Below, in pieces: positions 39,738 to 46,883 of a DNA stretch of 64,000 nt (position 1 is its first letter; every line of letters begins with the position of its first letter). The notes beneath the pieces are model-generated. The model searched no databases, was not told the DNA's origin, and saw only the letters and a list, made by a program, of their open reading frames with translations. The DNA is from Phytoactinopolyspora alkaliphila (GTDB lineage Bacteria; Actinomycetota; Actinomycetes; Jiangellales; Jiangellaceae): NCBI RefSeq assembly GCF_010550695.1, contig NZ_JAAGOB010000013.1:62001-126000 (forward strand). Direction: 5' to 3'. Position numbers and translations under genes: made by a program.

Positions 39738-40268
39738 TCAGGCGGCCAGGCGAGCGCCACGCGCGCGATGCCGCCGGACCGCTGCGCGGTTTCCACAGGA
39801 TGGGGAGCAATAACGCTGGCGCCCGTTGCGTGAGACATCGGCATACACTCGCCCGCACCCGGCGGCGGAGCACCGCCCGAGACGATCCATCCCCCGCCCG
39901 GTGAGATGCAAGGCGGTGCCCGCTGCGATGAGCGCGCACACCTGCCGGTCCACTGGGAGATCGTCCTCCCGGAAATGTAGGTGCCATCCCGTACCCGCGT
40001 GGTCGGTGAGCTGCGGAGCTTCGGCGTGCTCTCGCAGGAGCACGTTGAGCCGGGATGCTCGCTCCTGGTTCTCGGCACTGTCGATCACCTCGGCCCATCG
40101 CTGGAGAAAAGAGCTGACGGCTGTGAGGTCCTGCTCGCGCGCTCGACGCTCCAACACAAGGCCGGCGTCGGCGCATCGCTGCTCAAGGTCGACAATGCTG
40201 AGTGGCGGGCTGTTGAGCAGGCTCACCCCCAGCAGGACCGCGTCGCGGCCGTAAGGGTTGAAATGCAT
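39738..40268 (-). CDS. CGNR zinc-finger (ABATE-domain) protein
   Basis: A 176-residue protein with an N-terminal ABATE-type region (AVLLGVSLLNSPPLSIVDLEQRCADAGLVLERRA) and a C-terminal CGNR zinc finger: CSAAGCGRVYADVSRNGRQRYCSPSCGNRAAVRRHRARG. Such proteins are thought to bind nucleic acid and act as stress-related regulators. There is no ribosome site before ATG 40268, and a TAATAG-like -10 lies close upstream, so it may be leaderless. It is divergent from the next small zinc-binding gene. Confidence 0.88.
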   Translation of the reverse strand: MHFNPYGRDAVLLGVSLLNSPPLSIVDLEQRCADAGLVLERRAREQDLTAVSSFLQRWAEVIDSAENQERASRLNVLLREHAEAPQLTDHAGTGWHLHFREDDLPVDRQVCALIAAGTALHLTGRGMDRLGRCSAAGCGRVYADVSRNGRQRYCSPSCGNRAAVRRHRARGARLAA

Positions 40269-40473: not shown

Positions 40474-40483
40474 AGGAGGCGGC

Positions 40484-40542
40484 AAGCCGTGCAGTCTTCA
40501 AGCCGTGCAGTCTTCAAGCCGTGCAGTCTTCAAGCCGTGCAG
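40484..40542 (+). repeat. 16-bp tandem repeat, about 3.7 copies
   Basis: AAGCCGTGCAGTCTTC is repeated directly three times and then partly a fourth time, with no changes, between the small zinc-type gene and the 3' end of the HNH gene. The perfect copies suggest recent expansion. No gene was found within it. Confidence 0.9.
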
Positions 40543-40593
40543 CCTTCCCATCTGGACAGCCCAGCCCGGTGAACGAACCCTCTATCCTGGGCA

Positions 40594-43443
40594 TTAGAAC
40601 GGTGCTGGGTCTGTGCGCTGAAGGTCTGCGTCGACGTTGGGGTAGGCATATCGAGCGGCGCGGGCGCGGTCATGCATGTGGGCACTGGTATGACAAGCTG
40701 CGGGCCTTGGCTGGCTCATGGCGCGTTTGGCGGCAGGGCTCGTCGGCGCCGGTCGCATGATCGGCATGCAGCGGCAGACGTACTGACAGCCGCATGCCAG
40801 ATACCGGCGCGTCTCCTCGCCGGATCTAGGCATCGGTACCGAGAACGGAGACCAGATTTCACCTTCGCGAATGCCCTGTTCCGCGGTGGGATTGGAGCCG
40901 GAACAGGGACCAGCGTCGACTCCCGTGCCGGTGCGTGGGCCGGGTAGCGCGGGCATCACCACGGGTGTCCGATTCACGTATGTGTGACCGAGCGGGCTGC
41001 GCCAGACAGTGATCTCGGGCGATGGTTTGCTCACTTTCCATGCGCCGTCGTGCTTGAGCCGATGATCGTGCCGGCAGCAGCAGGCGAGATTCGAAGCGGT
41101 GGTGAGGCCGCCGTCGGCGTGGTCTACCACGTGATCTTGATCGGTGCGAGATGCGGGCGCTCGGCAGGCGGGATGAGCGCAGGAGCGATCCCGGATCTGA
41201 ATCAGCCGTCGCAACCGTGCTCCGGCGGTGCGCCGCGCCGCGTCTCTCATGTCCGTGCCCACGCTGGTGCTGGCTGCAGTGGCAGGGGCAGGGCCGGTGG
41301 CTGCAGTGGCAGGGGCAGAGACGGTGGTGGTGGCGTCGTCGGTGTCGCTGTCGATGACATTCCGGTGATGCTGGGCAGCGATGTCCGCGATCACCTCCGA
41401 CCACGTACCTAGGTGCGTCGGGTCGCGGGTGAATTGCTTCAGTTCGCTCTCCTTGATGTGAAGCTCGACAATCGAGTGACGGCGATGTCTTGCGGGCACC
41501 TCACCCTGCTTCCGCTCCCGGTTCTGGCCGCGATGCCCATACCCGTGCCCATGGCCGTTCCCATACCCGTGCGGATCTCGGTGCCGAGCCTGTCGCCGGG
41601 TGGTGACCCCGCAGTCGATGGGGCGTCCGTCGGCGCCGCAGATCACCCAGCGCCACTCCGCGCCCGCCATGGTTTCGATGACGTCGCGGGCCAACGAGGC
41701 TGGGACGAAGTCCCAGCCGACGATCTCGGCAGGGTGTTCGTTCGTGCCGAGCAGGGCGGCGATCTCCACACGCATCTCCCGTACCGGCCAGGCGCCCGAG
41801 CGGTTCTTCGCTGTCGCTGCGATGTGCCCGCGGGTCGTCTGCTGCGCTGGGCGGTCGCCACGGCGCCCGTCGCAAGGACTTCCGTCGCCGCTGCCGTCAC
41901 CGAGGTTGCCGGCAACCTTCGCAGCCAGGCCGTCGCCGCTGCCGCTGGGCTTGCCGGGACTACTAGGCCCGCGAGGCGGCCCGCCGGGTTCGTCTGGTGG
42001 GTTGGGCTCGTCTGGTGGGTTGGGCTCGTCTGGTGGGTTGGGTTCGCCTGGTGCGTTGGGCTCGTCTCGGCCGTCGGTCTCATCCGGTCCGTCGTGCTCG
42101 TCGCGGCCTTCGGGTTCGTCCGGTGCGTCGTGCTCGTCGCGGCCTTCGGGTTCGTCCGGTGCGTCGTGCTCGCCTGGTCCGTTGAAATCATCCCGACCGG
42201 CAGGTTCGTCCGGTCGGTTGTGCACGTCGTGGTGGTATGTGCCTGCGTCGCTGGCTCCACCGTTCCTGTCGCTGTGGTCTCCGGCGCCGGCATCGGGGGT
42301 GCTGTGCCCGGCGTTTGGGGCGCTGTACCCGGCGTTGGGGGACTGGGCGCTGTCCTCGCTGCTGAACCGGCTGCTGCCCGTTCTGTTCGCCGCACGGATG
42401 TGGTCCGTGGCCGGCGCTCCGGATTGGGAGCTTGGGCTCCCTGGTTCGGCGAACGGGTGGGCGAGGACGTGGGCGATGATCTCGTCGTCGGTCATGAATT
42501 CGAAGGTCGCGTCGAGCATGCCGAGGAACACGTCGGCCCGGACGTGCGCGATCCGGCGTCTGTCTCCGGCCCGTTTGCATGCCCTGGCGAGGACGTCTAC
42601 CCGGTCACATGCGGCCGCGACTCTGTCCACCGGCAAATCCAGACCACTGAGGTTCGCCGTGCCATCGTCGTTGCGCGACCCTTCGACCCTGCGCCCTTTG
42701 ACCGCCGCACGGTAGCGCTTCTCCGCCCAGTCTGGGTCGATCGCGATGGCGAGGCGCTTAATCTTGTCGATCAGCTCTCCGACAAGCAATCCGGGAGCGA
42801 GCGGAAGCAGGTCAGCGATGATCTGTGCGGCTTGATCGTCGCTCAGCCCGGTGGTCCACTGCGTGAACGCGCGGGCTCGGGCTTCGTCCAGGTTTCCGGC
42901 GTACATAGCCTCGCCGAGCATCGGCAGCCGCCGGTGCACGTCCCACGCCAGAGCGAAGGTGGTGTCGGACCGGCGGCGGGACCATACAAGCGCGGCGCGG
43001 GCTTCCTCGGCGGCGAACTTCCCTGGATGTTCCAGACGCGACACCCTGTCCGCCGACTGGTCCCTGCGAAGCCCGGACTCCAGCACCGCTGCCAAGAACG
43101 CCGCGTATTCGTGCCCCGCCTGTCGGTAGGTGGCCTTCATCACCTCGACAACGTCGCCGCCACGAACACGACTGATCGGCAGCTCCGCCAGCACCGCGGC
43201 CAGCTTCGGCCCTGGTGGGTACGACGCCAAACCGTCCGGCGCCCGCATCGGTTCGTGCTGATCAGACTCGTGCTCGTGGGACGTGTGCTGGCCGGACGTG
43301 TTCGGGTGGGGCGCGCGTGGGCTAGGCGCGTCCCGAGTCGTGTGATCCGGGCCAGGTGTTCCCTGCGGGGGTGCGGGCGCGTCATCAGCCTGCCAAGGCA
43401 CGGCGGGGAGGTGATCACCGTCCCACCCGGCGGCGTCTGCCAC
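40594..43443 (-). CDS. DUF222/HNH endonuclease (13E12 family) with expanded linker
   Basis: A 949-residue protein. DUF222 covers about residues 75-335 (PKLAAVLAELPISRVRGGDVVEVMK, DTTFALAWDVHRRLPMLGEAMY, WAEKRYRAAVKGRRVEG). The HNH domain near residue 810 has RDRSCAHPACRAPASRTDQDHVVDHADGGL, then NLACCCRHDHRLKH. Between them, about residues 420-490, is a low-complexity Asp/Glu/Pro linker. The family includes the mycobacterial REP13E12 proteins; a nuclease role at damaged or mobile DNA is suspected but not shown. GTG 43443 has AAGGAGGTG upstream, and a LexA-type box lies 114 bp before the start. The C-terminal 90 residues are unusual and Cys-rich. Confidence 0.88.
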   Translation of the reverse strand: MADAAGWDGDHLPAVPWQADDAPAPPQGTPGPDHTTRDAPSPRAPHPNTSGQHTSHEHESDQHEPMRAPDGLASYPPGPKLAAVLAELPISRVRGGDVVEVMKATYRQAGHEYAAFLAAVLESGLRRDQSADRVSRLEHPGKFAAEEARAALVWSRRRSDTTFALAWDVHRRLPMLGEAMYAGNLDEARARAFTQWTTGLSDDQAAQIIADLLPLAPGLLVGELIDKIKRLAIAIDPDWAEKRYRAAVKGRRVEGSRNDDGTANLSGLDLPVDRVAAACDRVDVLARACKRAGDRRRIAHVRADVFLGMLDATFEFMTDDEIIAHVLAHPFAEPGSPSSQSGAPATDHIRAANRTGSSRFSSEDSAQSPNAGYSAPNAGHSTPDAGAGDHSDRNGGASDAGTYHHDVHNRPDEPAGRDDFNGPGEHDAPDEPEGRDEHDAPDEPEGRDEHDGPDETDGRDEPNAPGEPNPPDEPNPPDEPNPPDEPGGPPRGPSSPGKPSGSGDGLAAKVAGNLGDGSGDGSPCDGRRGDRPAQQTTRGHIAATAKNRSGAWPVREMRVEIAALLGTNEHPAEIVGWDFVPASLARDVIETMAGAEWRWVICGADGRPIDCGVTTRRQARHRDPHGYGNGHGHGYGHRGQNRERKQGEVPARHRRHSIVELHIKESELKQFTRDPTHLGTWSEVIADIAAQHHRNVIDSDTDDATTTVSAPATAATGPAPATAASTSVGTDMRDAARRTAGARLRRLIQIRDRSCAHPACRAPASRTDQDHVVDHADGGLTTASNLACCCRHDHRLKHDGAWKVSKPSPEITVWRSPLGHTYVNRTPVVMPALPGPRTGTGVDAGPCSGSNPTAEQGIREGEIWSPFSVPMPRSGEETRRYLACGCQYVCRCMPIMRPAPTSPAAKRAMSQPRPAACHTSAHMHDRARAARYAYPNVDADLQRTDPAPF
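41986..42185 (-). repeat. Tandem repeats coding an acidic/proline linker
   Basis: 18-bp units (GGGTTGGGCTCGTCTGGT and variants) followed by two 36-bp units (from 42091 and 42127) code on the minus strand for alternating Pro/Asp/Glu blocks such as NPPDEPNPPDEP and EGRDEHDAPDEP. All unit lengths are multiples of three, so copy-number change alters linker length without breaking the frame. Confidence 0.85.
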
Positions 43444-43556
43444 GGCGGCCACCTCCTTCTTATAGTTTCCGGGGCGAGTGCACCTCACTGCGCCCGTGCA
43501 GATCAGGCCGGTGATGGTGTGTCCTGCCAGAATTGATCAACTGACTCCATCATAGA

Positions 43557-43572
43557 TCGAATCTATGTTCGA
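43557..43572 (-). promoter_or_regulatory. LexA/SOS box before the HNH gene
   Basis: TCGAATCTATGTTCGA matches the actinobacterial LexA consensus TCGAAC-N4-GTTCGA except for one base (T for C at position 6). It is 114 bp upstream of the HNH gene start, in the expected orientation-independent palindromic form. Confidence 0.72.
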
Positions 43573-43875
43573 TTCAATGCTTGTGACATGGAGAAATGAG
43601 GGAATTAGATGTCAATCCGGATTTGACGACGCCAGCCGGAGGGCCGGTAATCAGCGGCCCGGGAGGGGCTTGCGCCTCGACGCTGGCGCGGTCTCCGCGA
43701 AAACTCCCGACGTGCTACCGGTGCCGCCGAACCCACCCGGCATTCCGGGGTGCGTCTCCCCGCTAGCCCCGGGGAGCCGGCCCTGAAACGCCCCGTCGCC
43801 GGGCGGTACGGCGCGATGTCCGGCCCGTGGTTGATCGATGAAAGCAATCCTTCATGGCCCCGCTGGGCCGCGCCG
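43573..43875. other. Intergenic stretch with no gene recognised
   Basis: About 300 bases between the SOS box and the resistance-gene promoter. Both strands were read: only weak, overlapping frames without family signal or ribosome sites. GC-rich inverted segments are present (CCGGTAATCAGCGGCCCGG and CCCCGCTAGCCCCGGGG near 43760) but none is a clear terminator. Confidence 0.5.
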
Positions 43876-43948: not shown

Positions 43949-44059
43949 ATGCGAGGAACGTTCATGTCCATTCAGAACGGCATCCGGACCTATCCAGAGG
44001 ACATGACACCTCGTGACCACACTCAACCTTGGGATTCTGGCGCATGTAGACGCCGGTAA
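43949..44059 (+). CDS. Leader peptide (upstream ORF) of the ribosomal protection gene
   Basis: From ATG 43949, with GAGGAG at 43936-43941, 36 codons read MRGTFMSIQNGIRTYPEDMT and then PRDHTQPWDSGACRRR before TAA at 44057-44059. It overlaps the first 47 bases of the ribosomal protection gene in another frame. Translation of leader peptides controls tet(M) and whiB7 expression by attenuation, so this short ORF probably senses ribosome stalling. A second in-frame ATG at 43964 is also possible. Confidence 0.65.
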   Translation: MRGTFMSIQNGIRTYPEDMTPRDHTQPWDSGACRRR

Positions 44060-46000
44060 GACGAGCCTGACCGAGCGGCTGCTCTATGCCGCCGGTGTCA
44101 TCGACGAGGTCGGCAGCGTCGACGACGGCAGTACCCAGACCGACTCTCTCGCGTTGGAACGCCAGCGCGGAATCACAATCAAGTCCGCGGTCGTCTCGTT
44201 CACGATCGACGACGTCACCGTCAACCTGATCGACACACCCGGCCACCCGGACTTCATCGCAGAGGTGGAGCGCGTCCTGTCCGTGCTCGACGGCGCGGTC
44301 CTCGTGCTCTCGGCCGTGGAAGGTGTGCAGGCACAGACGCGGGTCCTTATGCGGACCCTCCAGCGGCTGGGCATACCCACGCTGATCTTCGTCAACAAGA
44401 TCGACCGCCGCGGTGCGCGCCAGGACGATGTTCTGCGCTCCATCGCGCAGCGGTTGACCTCCGCCGTCGTCTCGATGGGATCGGTGCAGGACATCGGATC
44501 CCGCGCCGCTCGCTTCACGGCGTACTCCACCGCCGACCCGGTATTCACCGCCGCACTCATCGAGACCCTGGCTGATCACGACGACGCGCTCCTGGCGGCC
44601 TATGTCGACGACGAAGGGGCACTGTCCGGGGATTGCCTCCATGCGCAGCTCACCGCGCAGGTCAGGAAAGCCCTGATTCACCCGGTGTACTTCGGCTCGG
44701 CCATCACGGGTGCGGGTGGCGGCTCCCTGATGCGTGGAATCGCGGAGCTGCTTCCCGCGGCCGGCCAGGACGCCGGCGGGCCTGTCTCGGGCACGGTGTT
44801 CAAGATCGAGCGTGGGGCGGCCGGGGAACGGATCGCCTACATCCGGATGTTCAGCGGAACTCTGCGCGTCCGGGACCGGGTCCAGGTGGGCCGTGACCGG
44901 GAGGGCAAGGTCACCGGGATCCGCGTCTTCGACCGCGGCTCGACCGAGGAGCGGGAGACGGTGTCCGCGGGGCGGATCGCGATGCTCCGCGGTCTCAGCG
45001 ACGTTCAGATCGGCGACGTCGTCGGTGATTCGGGGCTGGTGGCGCCAGGCGGTGGCTACTTCGCCCCACCGACGTTGGAGACCGTCGTCGTTCCTCGAAA
45101 CCTCTCCGACAAGGGCGCCCTGCACCTTGCCCTCACCCAGCTCGCCGAGCAAGACCCACTGATCGATGTGCGCCAGGACGACGTTCGCCAGGAGATCTCC
45201 GTCTCGCTCTACGGCGAGGTGCAGAAGGAGATCATCCAGGCGACGATTCGCGACGACTACGGCATAGACGTCGACTTCGAGGAGACCACCACGGTGTGCA
45301 TCGAGCGGCCGCTCGGCACCGGGGAAGCGGTCGAGTTCATCTACACGGACTCGAACCCGTTCCTCGCCACAGTAGGCCTGCGCATCGAACCGGCGTCGAT
45401 CGGGACCGGCGTCGAGTTCGCGCTCGGCGTGGAGCTCGGATCGCTGCCGCGCGCCTTCATGACGGCGATCCAGGACACCATCACCACGACGTTGCGCCAG
45501 GGCCTGTACGGCTGGCAGGTCACCGACTGCACGGTCGCGCTGACACACTCGGGTTACGCGCCCCGCCAGAGCCACGCTCATCAGGGCTTTGACAAGAGCA
45601 TGTCGAGCACCGGCGAGGATTTCCGGTTCCTCACGCCGCTGGTGCTTCTCGCGGCGCTGAAGCGAGCGGGCAGCAGGGTCTGCGAACCGATGCACCGGTA
45701 CCGCGTCGAGATCCCGGCGGACGTGTTCGGATCGGTGGTGCCGGCTCTGGCCCGTCTGGATGCGGCTCCCCGCACGTCCGTGACGCACGGTTCGTCGTGC
45801 ACGCTGGAGGGCGACATACCGGCGGCCAGGGTGCACGAGCTGCAGCAGCAGCTGCCCGGCATGACCAGTGGCGAAGGTGTCCTGGAGACCTCCTTCGACC
45901 ACTACCGGCCGGTCCGCGGGCCGGCTCCGTCCCGGACCCGGACGGACCACAACCCCTCAACCGGCGGGAGTACCTCTTGCACGTGCAACGCCGTGTCTGA
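44013..46000 (+). CDS. OtrA/Tet(M)-like ribosomal protection GTPase, frameshifted near its end
   Basis: An elongation factor G-like GTPase that removes tetracycline from ribosomes. G motifs are AHVDAGKTSLTERLLY (G1), DTPGHPDF (G3) and NKIDRRGA (G4), followed by domains II-V, with LPGMTSGEGVLETSFDHYRPV near the C-terminus. The family ends 'DHNPLNRREYLLHV'. Here the frame keeps DHN, then loses a C in AACCCC-TC (45951-45958), and PLNRREYLLHVQRRV with stop at 45998-46000 is in the next frame. With that base restored it would be about 662 residues, close to OtrA. As it stands the original frame runs on into exonuclease III. GTG 44013 lies in the leader ORF and is probably coupled to it. Confidence 0.85.
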
Positions 46001-46022
46001 GCGCTCCGCTACGGTGGTTGGC

Positions 46023-46883
46023 GTGAGAGTGGCGACGTGGAACGTGAACTCGGTCAAGCAGCGGGTGCCGCGGCTTCTGCCGTGGCTGGATGAACGCCGC
46101 CCGGACGTGGTCTGCCTTCAGGAGACCAAGCTTAGCGACGACGCTTTCGCCACGTTGCTCGGTGACGAGCTCGCCGGGCGCGGCTACCAGTACGCGGTAC
46201 ACGGTCAGGCGCAATGGAACGGTGTGGCCATCCTGTCCCGGGTCGGGCTCGAGGATGCGGTGCCGGGACTCGATGGCGGCCCCGGGTTCCCAGACCCCGA
46301 GGCGCGGGCGGTCTCCGCCACCTGTGCGGGGATCCGGGTGCACTCGGTGTACGTGCCGAACGGACGGACTCCCGATTCGGACCACTACCACTACAAGCTG
46401 GCATGGCTGGCTGCCCTGCGCGACGTCGTCGCTACTGGTCCCGAAGAGGTGCTGGTGTGCGGCGACGTCAACATTGCGCCGGCCGACGCGGACGTGTTCG
46501 ATCCGGACGCGTACATCGGGCAGACCCACGTCACGCCGCCCGAGCGGGCGGCGCTCGCTGAGCTTCAGGCTGTCGGATTGCGAGACGTGGTGCGTGACCG
46601 ATGGCCCCACGAGCGGGTGTTCACGTACTGGGACTACCGCGCCGGGATGTTTCACAAGGACCTCGGGATGCGCATCGATCTGGTGCTGGCGGCGAATCCG
46701 GTGGCCGAACGGGTCCAGGCGGCATGGGTAGACCGGCATGCCCGCAAGGGCACCGGACCCAGTGACCACGCTCCGGTGATCGTCGACCTCGACGACGCGC
46801 CCGACGGCGACATCGGGCCCGTGGTGCCCCCGCCGTCCGCGCGTCCGGCCAAGCGCGGCTCCGCCAGGCTGCCGCAGACCTAG
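46023..46883 (+). CDS. xth: Exodeoxyribonuclease III (Xth)
   Basis: A 286-residue endonuclease/exonuclease/phosphatase-fold DNA repair enzyme: VRVATWNVNSVKQRVPRLLPWL, DVVCLQETKLSD with catalytic Glu, SVYVPNGRT, VCGDVNIAPAD, YWDYRAGMF and GPSDHAPVIVDL with the catalytic His. It removes AP sites and 3' blocks. It starts at GTG 46023 in a short gap after the resistance gene; only the one-base frameshift upstream makes the two appear fused. Confidence 0.95.
   Translation: MRVATWNVNSVKQRVPRLLPWLDERRPDVVCLQETKLSDDAFATLLGDELAGRGYQYAVHGQAQWNGVAILSRVGLEDAVPGLDGGPGFPDPEARAVSATCAGIRVHSVYVPNGRTPDSDHYHYKLAWLAALRDVVATGPEEVLVCGDVNIAPADADVFDPDAYIGQTHVTPPERAALAELQAVGLRDVVRDRWPHERVFTYWDYRAGMFHKDLGMRIDLVLAANPVAERVQAAWVDRHARKGTGPSDHAPVIVDLDDAPDGDIGPVVPPPSARPAKRGSARLPQT

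Follow-up and report, generated by a model that had tools for sequence, protein, structure and literature searches.

An SSB-type C-terminal tip on an SOS-box-bearing DUF222-HNH protein of Phytoactinopolyspora alkaliphila and its clade

How might a predicted nuclease of the DUF222-HNH family, encoded behind an SOS box, find damaged DNA? The question is raised by a 64,000-nucleotide stretch of the Phytoactinopolyspora alkaliphila genome (contig NZ_JAAGOB010000013.1, positions 62,001 to 126,000; hereafter, the window), in which the minus-strand open reading frame (ORF) at 40594-43443 encodes a DUF222-HNH protein of 949 residues, with a GTG start and the TAA stop included. A first-pass annotation had drawn attention to a LexA-like box before this gene and to an acidic linker and a Cys-rich C terminus in its product. 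The most conserved part of the tail, absent from that annotation, is the last five residues, which form a tip of the type that ends the single-stranded DNA-binding protein (SSB).

To delimit the clade, we built a DUF222 profile from five copies in the organism's own genome and took sequences scoring at least 200 against it as core members (n = 34). Twenty-eight of these terminate in [DE]xPP[FY]. With one sequence kept per 80% cluster (25 clusters), Phe occupies position -1 in 23, Pro position -2 in 24 and position -3 in 23, and Asp or Glu position -5 in all 25. Entropy is 0.24-0.90 bits at these four positions, 2.6 bits at -4, and 2.8-3.7 bits from -6 to -30. The five own-genome core paralogues end in DPAPF, EPVPY, DLPPF, DIPPF, and DVPPF. 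Among 18 named relatives the tip is present in 14, from Jiangella, Phytoactinopolyspora, Microbispora, Planotetraspora, Rhizohabitans, and Actinomycetospora (for example, IDTPPF, DDEIPPF, DDIPPF, LEVPPF, WDAPPF, SDTPPF, and DDPPPF); the other four end in HELPPS (L049), have no tip (L056), are broken before the HNH domain (L053), or end at a contig edge (L052), and the HNH part of L053, read in its own frame, ends in SEVPPF. Tip-bearing members span the Jiangellales, Streptosporangiales, and Pseudonocardiales. A further DUF222 copy of the organism's own genome (G000), C30a (L023/L006, contig C30), is apparently frameshifted within HNH, and its continuing frame ends in DPPPF.

The SSB of the same genome ends in EEPPF. 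The best-scoring SSB ends in [DE]EPPF in 13 of 13 genomes examined, one of which has another SSB with the end DEPPY. The own genome also has three SSB-like proteins of lower score, all lacking the tip. Judged by its residues, the end of the core clade is the SSB C-terminal tip, and the query protein, which ends in TDPAPF, has the pattern that marks an SSB tail, acidic residue(s) followed by P-F at the extreme C terminus.

Such ends are rare among other proteins. In a control set of 2,679 other ORFs of at least 100 residues from the same DNA, spurious frames included, P[FY] ends were found in 7 and PP[FY] ends in 3, namely SSB and two broken DUF222-HNH C termini; with these three removed, the count is 0 of 2,676. 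The tip was likewise found in 0 of the 27 HNH ORFs of our first sample that had no clade DUF222 score. An all-frame scan of the own genome for [DE]xPPF followed by a stop gave 6 matches: three intact DUF222 copies, the broken C30a, SSB, and one spurious 40-codon frame antisense to an apparent sbcC gene. The same scan of four congeneric genomes gave 41 matches (25 for the reversed pattern), 40 of which were checked at the DNA level; 5 of the 41, including the remaining one, have TGG in place of a stop codon. The 36 frames left after these comprise 27 HNH proteins (hidden Markov model [HMM] E ≤ 1e-3), 2 HNH-tail fragments (at contig edges and assigned by eye), 4 SSBs, 1 OLD-family protein, and 2 spurious frames. 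When seven of the HNH matches were spot-checked against Pfam, six fitted DUF222 and/or HNH and one (L253) had no match. Across the five genomes scanned, then, almost only DUF222-HNH proteins besides SSB have the strict [DE]xPPF end. The OLD-family case is an AAA-TOPRIM protein (PF20469, PF13304; L268:1700-3607, congener contig G018:C2) ending in TTADEPPF, and shows an SSB-type tip in a second, unrelated family of nuclease type.

We then turn to the control of the gene. The box TCGAATCTATGTTCGA at 43557-43572 is the window's only exact TCGAAN6TTCGA (expected, 0.05; at least one in 4 of 100 shuffles). Allowing one mismatch gives 4 matches in the window versus 1.42 expected, a number reached by 7 of 100 shuffles, so that a loose match alone is weak. 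The composite of box and promoter hexamers, TTGNNTCGAN7TTCGANNTANNNT with one mismatch allowed, occurs once in the window (0.00 expected). A slightly looser composite occurs exactly 3 times in the 5.5-Mb own genome, with 0 for the reversed control, and all three matches lie at core DUF222-HNH copies (C5, which is the query, C7, and C32). At the core copies C23b and C30b the composite is absent, and the box stands in the same place with 1 and 3 mismatches.

The arrangement recurs in the clade. A box with up to three mismatches lies inside the -35/-10 spacer in 25 of the 34 clade genes with readable upstream sequence versus 0 of 680 shuffles, which preserve base composition only; among 25 other DUF222-HNH genes it does so in 2, and 5 of the 25 have a perfect box elsewhere near the start. 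Since several other DUF222-HNH genes have perfect ones, SOS boxes are not special to the core clade. The loose box was discarded as evidence: when up to three mismatches are allowed, 30 of 34 clade genes have one close to their start, but 17 of 34 intragenic control stretches contain one as well. With at most one mismatch the figures are 12 of 34 clade genes and 0 controls. The lexA gene of the own genome (PF01726, PF00717) has two such boxes. We conclude that the query promoter has an SOS box positioned to block it, as expected for a gene of the LexA regulon, and LexA would presumably bind at this operator.

These results bear out what the first-pass annotation had said of the gene and its box, which is exact and lies in the promoter spacer; the distance of 114 bp that it gave holds for the GTG at 43443 (the longest-ORF alternative starts at 43488). 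It had also proposed a general link of such proteins to DNA damage through the mycobacterial 13E12 proteins, and the box in the promoter, the lexA boxes, and the recurrence in the clade support this. The 13E12/REP13E12 proteins of Mycobacterium tuberculosis are DUF222 proteins. In a published analysis, 13E12-family HNH genes are assigned to the M. tuberculosis LexA regulon, so that SOS control of mycobacterial family members is already known (PMC4181829).

As to the family assignment, PF02720 matches residues 124-310 on the N-terminal side at 33.1 bits (gathering cut-off, 24.4). PF01844 scores 18.0 bits against a cut-off of 21.4; in seven tip-bearing relatives it reaches 21.4-25.5 in three and 20.4 in one. 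The residues C755, C760, D770, H771, N785, C789/C790, and H794 are all present in the query and invariant across the five own-genome paralogues. The predicted catalytic and zinc residues of HNH are intact, and the protein is probably a nuclease. PADLOC returned no defence-system match for the query, and a search of solved structures by sequence returned one match only, at E = 0.05 and confined to the linker.

What DUF222 contributes was approached through structure models of a Jiangella homologue (mean predicted local distance difference test score, pLDDT, 61.7) and of its DUF222 N-terminal half (74.3). Foldseek gave no match at E ≤ 0.001 for either model (best E, 0.7-1). In a structural comparison of both, the top seven rows were all ParB/Noc/Spo0J proteins, with Z scores of 5.4-7.6, under 8, and the next rows scored 4.2-4.4. 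The N-terminal half of DUF222 may contain a ParB/Noc-like helix-turn-helix DNA-binding domain, a lead below the reliable range.

Between this half and the rest of DUF222 lies the linker, about 217 residues rich in D, E, P, and G (44 D/E versus 18 K/R of 218, counted over residues 332-549). It does contain tandem repeats, as had been claimed (within 41985-42172, a 36-bp unit ×3.7 and an 18-bp unit ×10.4), but it is not unusual: all 30 reliably measured core members of the 34 have a net-acidic linker of 40-236 residues at the same place. The lengths obtained for L029 (519), L054 (0), L055 (461), and L201 (309) are artefacts of the HMM fit and are excluded from this range. As a feature common to the clade and without sequence conservation, the linker was rejected as the key novelty. 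The Cys-rich C terminus fared similarly. The motif CGCQYVCRC is present at residues 884-892, and it is not peculiar to this protein, as 12 of 34 core members share the motif; with CxC-x2-5-CxC in the last 200 residues of just these 12, it was not retained as a clade trait either. The likeliest role of both linker and tail is that of a spacer.

DUF222 is widespread and multiplied, being found at E ≤ 1e-20 in 67 of 98 sampled genomes of the window's class, with at least 20 matches in one genome. The own genome has 17 Pfam DUF222 matches at 14 places, five of them at contig ends. Two copies of another subfamily (L031, end of contig C1; L032, start of C9) are 99.4% identical over 518 bp; the identity begins about 25 bp upstream of an SOS box, and the flanks are unrelated. 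A distant DUF222-HNH paralogue (C3, 168.6-174.6 kb) has a one-mismatch SOS box at 170588, and about 3 kb from it lies a gene with a perfect box that is imuA'-like by eye and has no Pfam match. A phage or plasmid origin was considered and dropped: no relatives were found in viral contigs or phage records, and the match in one plasmid record was confined to the HNH part and covered 8% of the query.

Over this family the tip is unevenly spread. PP[FY] ends occur in 46 of 124 non-redundant HNH ORFs, and in 4 of the 39 without a clade DUF222 score (the broken fragments L006 and L053, plus L171 and L163). For a quick phylogeny, 7 of the 124 rows were dropped, their HNH score being below 40 or their segment shorter than 60 residues; the remaining 117 HNH domains (100 columns) gave a tree in which 51 of the 113 inner branches are unresolved. 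Here PxP[FY] and PAF ends also count as tips. All 48 tip rows fall within one group of 91 (approximate likelihood ratio support, SH-aLRT, 99), with none among the 26 outside, and the core clade has the tip in 30 of 33 rows. The distribution needs 13 changes versus about 37 in shuffles, and the starred branches force at least 5. The tip as a mark of the whole DUF222-HNH family was rejected, many members being without it; its distribution on the tree ties it to a single branch, within which it was lost or gained repeatedly, and not to DUF222 as such.

We propose, at a probability of roughly 0.58, that the protein is an SOS-derepressed HNH nuclease whose mimic of the SSB tail docks it on proteins that partner SSB. 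LexA bound in the promoter spacer of this chromosomal gene would block transcription until DNA damage removes it. The helical DUF222 part would bind DNA and the HNH domain cut or nick it, while the long disordered acidic linker and the disordered tail would present the [DE]xPPF-type peptide in imitation of an SSB tail. Proteins whose pockets accept an SSB tail, of the RecO, RecG, PriA, or RecQ type, could then serve as docking partners for this peptide, and docking would bring the nuclease to single-stranded DNA gaps and stalled forks, let it compete with SSB there, or free the partners from SSB. In receptors of the SSB tip, the last Phe sits in a hydrophobic pocket, its carboxylate at a basic lip, and the Asp residues at a basic ridge (PMC10164576); the positions conserved here fit such a pocket. 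The operator within the promoter, the intact HNH residues, and the conserved tip are read from the sequence, whereas binding by LexA and by DUF222, cleavage, docking, and the place of action are inferred.

Several observations weigh against this proposal. The partner of the tip is a predicted class only, and an acidic tip could turn inward to the DNA-binding surface of its own protein instead. The tip of the query is DPAPF and departs from DxPPF at -3; that of C30b is EPVPY; and six core members in all deviate, ending in TDPAPF (the query), TEPVPY, EEEPPV, HELPPS, APQRRT, and PETDAA. The HNH score of the query is weak. Reversing the pattern as a control likewise gave 6 matches in the own genome, as many as the tip pattern itself, so that the identity of the genes and not the number of matches is the evidence. 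One expanded sister group (18 rows; three genomes, each having 11-18 matching stretches) lacks the tip in 17 rows, 14 of which end in PDEPAA or PDEPAV; being absent in many members, the tip is not essential to the DUF222-HNH family. Caution also comes from DdrB of Deinococcus, a protein that binds and anneals single-stranded DNA: its SSB-like motif is unnecessary for radioresistance, and such a tail can thus be dispensable (PMC3834827).

The acidic tails of some single-stranded DNA-binding proteins are thought to be autoinhibitory, and the tip could be such a tail, covering a basic surface of the same protein, that of its DNA-binding part or its HNH domain, until DNA displaces it. As this explanation would have it, acidic residues outnumber basic ones in the linker and in most tips, and the HNH region has a basic composition (16 K/R versus 8 D/E of 100). 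However, only the D/E at -5 is fixed; the other constraint lies on the terminal PPF, which is expected if a pocket reads Phe and carboxylate and not from general charge masking, and the tip matches the SSB tip of the same genomes. We regard autoinhibition as unlikely. No likelier, in our estimate, is a plain SOS-regulated, multicopy gene of the 13E12 type, possibly selfish or gene-converting, whose tip is a lineage relic that docks on nothing. The number and contig-end placement of the DUF222 matches and the two nearly identical copies with differing flanks speak for it, and REP13E12 loci, described as without defined function, are gene-conversion hotspots in M. tuberculosis (PMC13061034); a relic is hard to square with a tip that stays fixed over 25 clusters and three orders while the preceding 25 positions drift. 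Least probable, and by some distance, is a nuclease of noncanonical mismatch repair. Such a pathway, with RuvABC, DnaE2, and ImuA/B as further members, has been proposed for the HNH proteins of the M. tuberculosis 13E12 family (PMC4181829), and a distant paralogue lies close to the imuA'-like gene, but there is no mismatch-specific evidence, and the sole repair-like neighbour of the query gene seen in 38.5-45.5 kb is the Exo_endo_phos part of one ORF (see below).

Of known systems, the M. tuberculosis 13E12/REP13E12 proteins share the HNH domain, the multicopy state, and membership of the LexA regulon (PMC4181829); taking the M. tuberculosis side by description, the query clade differs in having DUF222 split by a long acidic linker and in its SSB-type tip. 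With bacterial SSB the query clade shares a low-complexity stretch that leads into a terminal [DE]xPPF, which in the main SSB of these genomes reads [DE]EPPF; the tip alone is in common, and the query has no match to the SSB domain PF00436 at E ≤ 1. Phage Orf and DUF968-HNH proteins are likewise SSB-linked recombination proteins, some with an HNH fusion (PMC4118853), but those bind SSB, whereas here the predicted nuclease itself bears the SSB-type peptide. Among the open-licence PMC papers covered, we found none that links DUF222 or 13E12 to an SSB tail.

Table 1. Coordinates of the DUF222-HNH gene, its promoter, and the parts of its product within the window
Feature	Position	Strand	Basis
-35 hexamer TTGAAT	43572..43577	-	promoter search; paralogues have the same position
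LexA/SOS box TCGAACATAGATTCGA in 17-bp promoter spacer	43557..43572	-	box and composite scans, clade comparison
-10 hexamer TATGAT	43549..43554	-	promoter search
Ribosome-binding site AAGGAGG, 8 nt upstream of GTG	43452..43458	-	direct reading
DUF222-HNH gene, 949 residues	40594..43443	-	ORF, Shine-Dalgarno position, Pfam
DUF222 N-terminal half, residues 124-310	42514..43074	-	Pfam PF02720, 33.1 bits
Linker, length-variable, net-acidic, low-complexity, residues 332-548, splits DUF222	41800..42450	-	repeats, paralogue and clade comparison
Tandem repeat, 18/36-bp unit, coding for linker D/E/P repeats	41985..42172	-	repeat search
DUF222 C-terminal half (putative), residues 549-625	41569..41799	-	paralogue alignment, outside Pfam match
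HNH domain, Zn Cys and D770-H771, N785, H794	40936..41211	-	Pfam, paralogue alignment
Cys motif CGCQYVCRC, residues 884-892	40768..40794	-	direct reading; 12/34 core members
SSB-type C-terminal tip DPAPF; clade consensus [DE]xPPF	40597..40611	-	paralogue and clade comparison

Just downstream of the gene, a 16-bp unit, CAAGCCGTGCAGTCTT, is repeated 4.1 times (97%) at 40483-40547, followed by a gene for a CGNR zinc-finger protein (PF11706) at 39738-40268 on the minus strand. On the plus strand, 44013-46883 is a single open frame with the complete domain set of an EF-G/ribosomal-protection-type protein (PF00009, PF03144, PF14492, PF03764, PF00679) and PF03372, an exonuclease-III-type Exo_endo_phos domain, putatively fused to the EF-G-type part.

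We give somewhat better than even odds to the wider view that one large actinobacterial branch of DUF222-HNH proteins consists of damage-induced nucleases that mimic the SSB tail and so enter or hijack the SSB network. If this is true, the tip would give direct experimental access to a family that lacks an assigned function. A tail of the SSB type points to a definite class of partners. The shared tail suggests how the DUF222-HNH family may find damaged DNA, and that competition for the pockets of SSB partners may be a part of the actinobacterial damage response.

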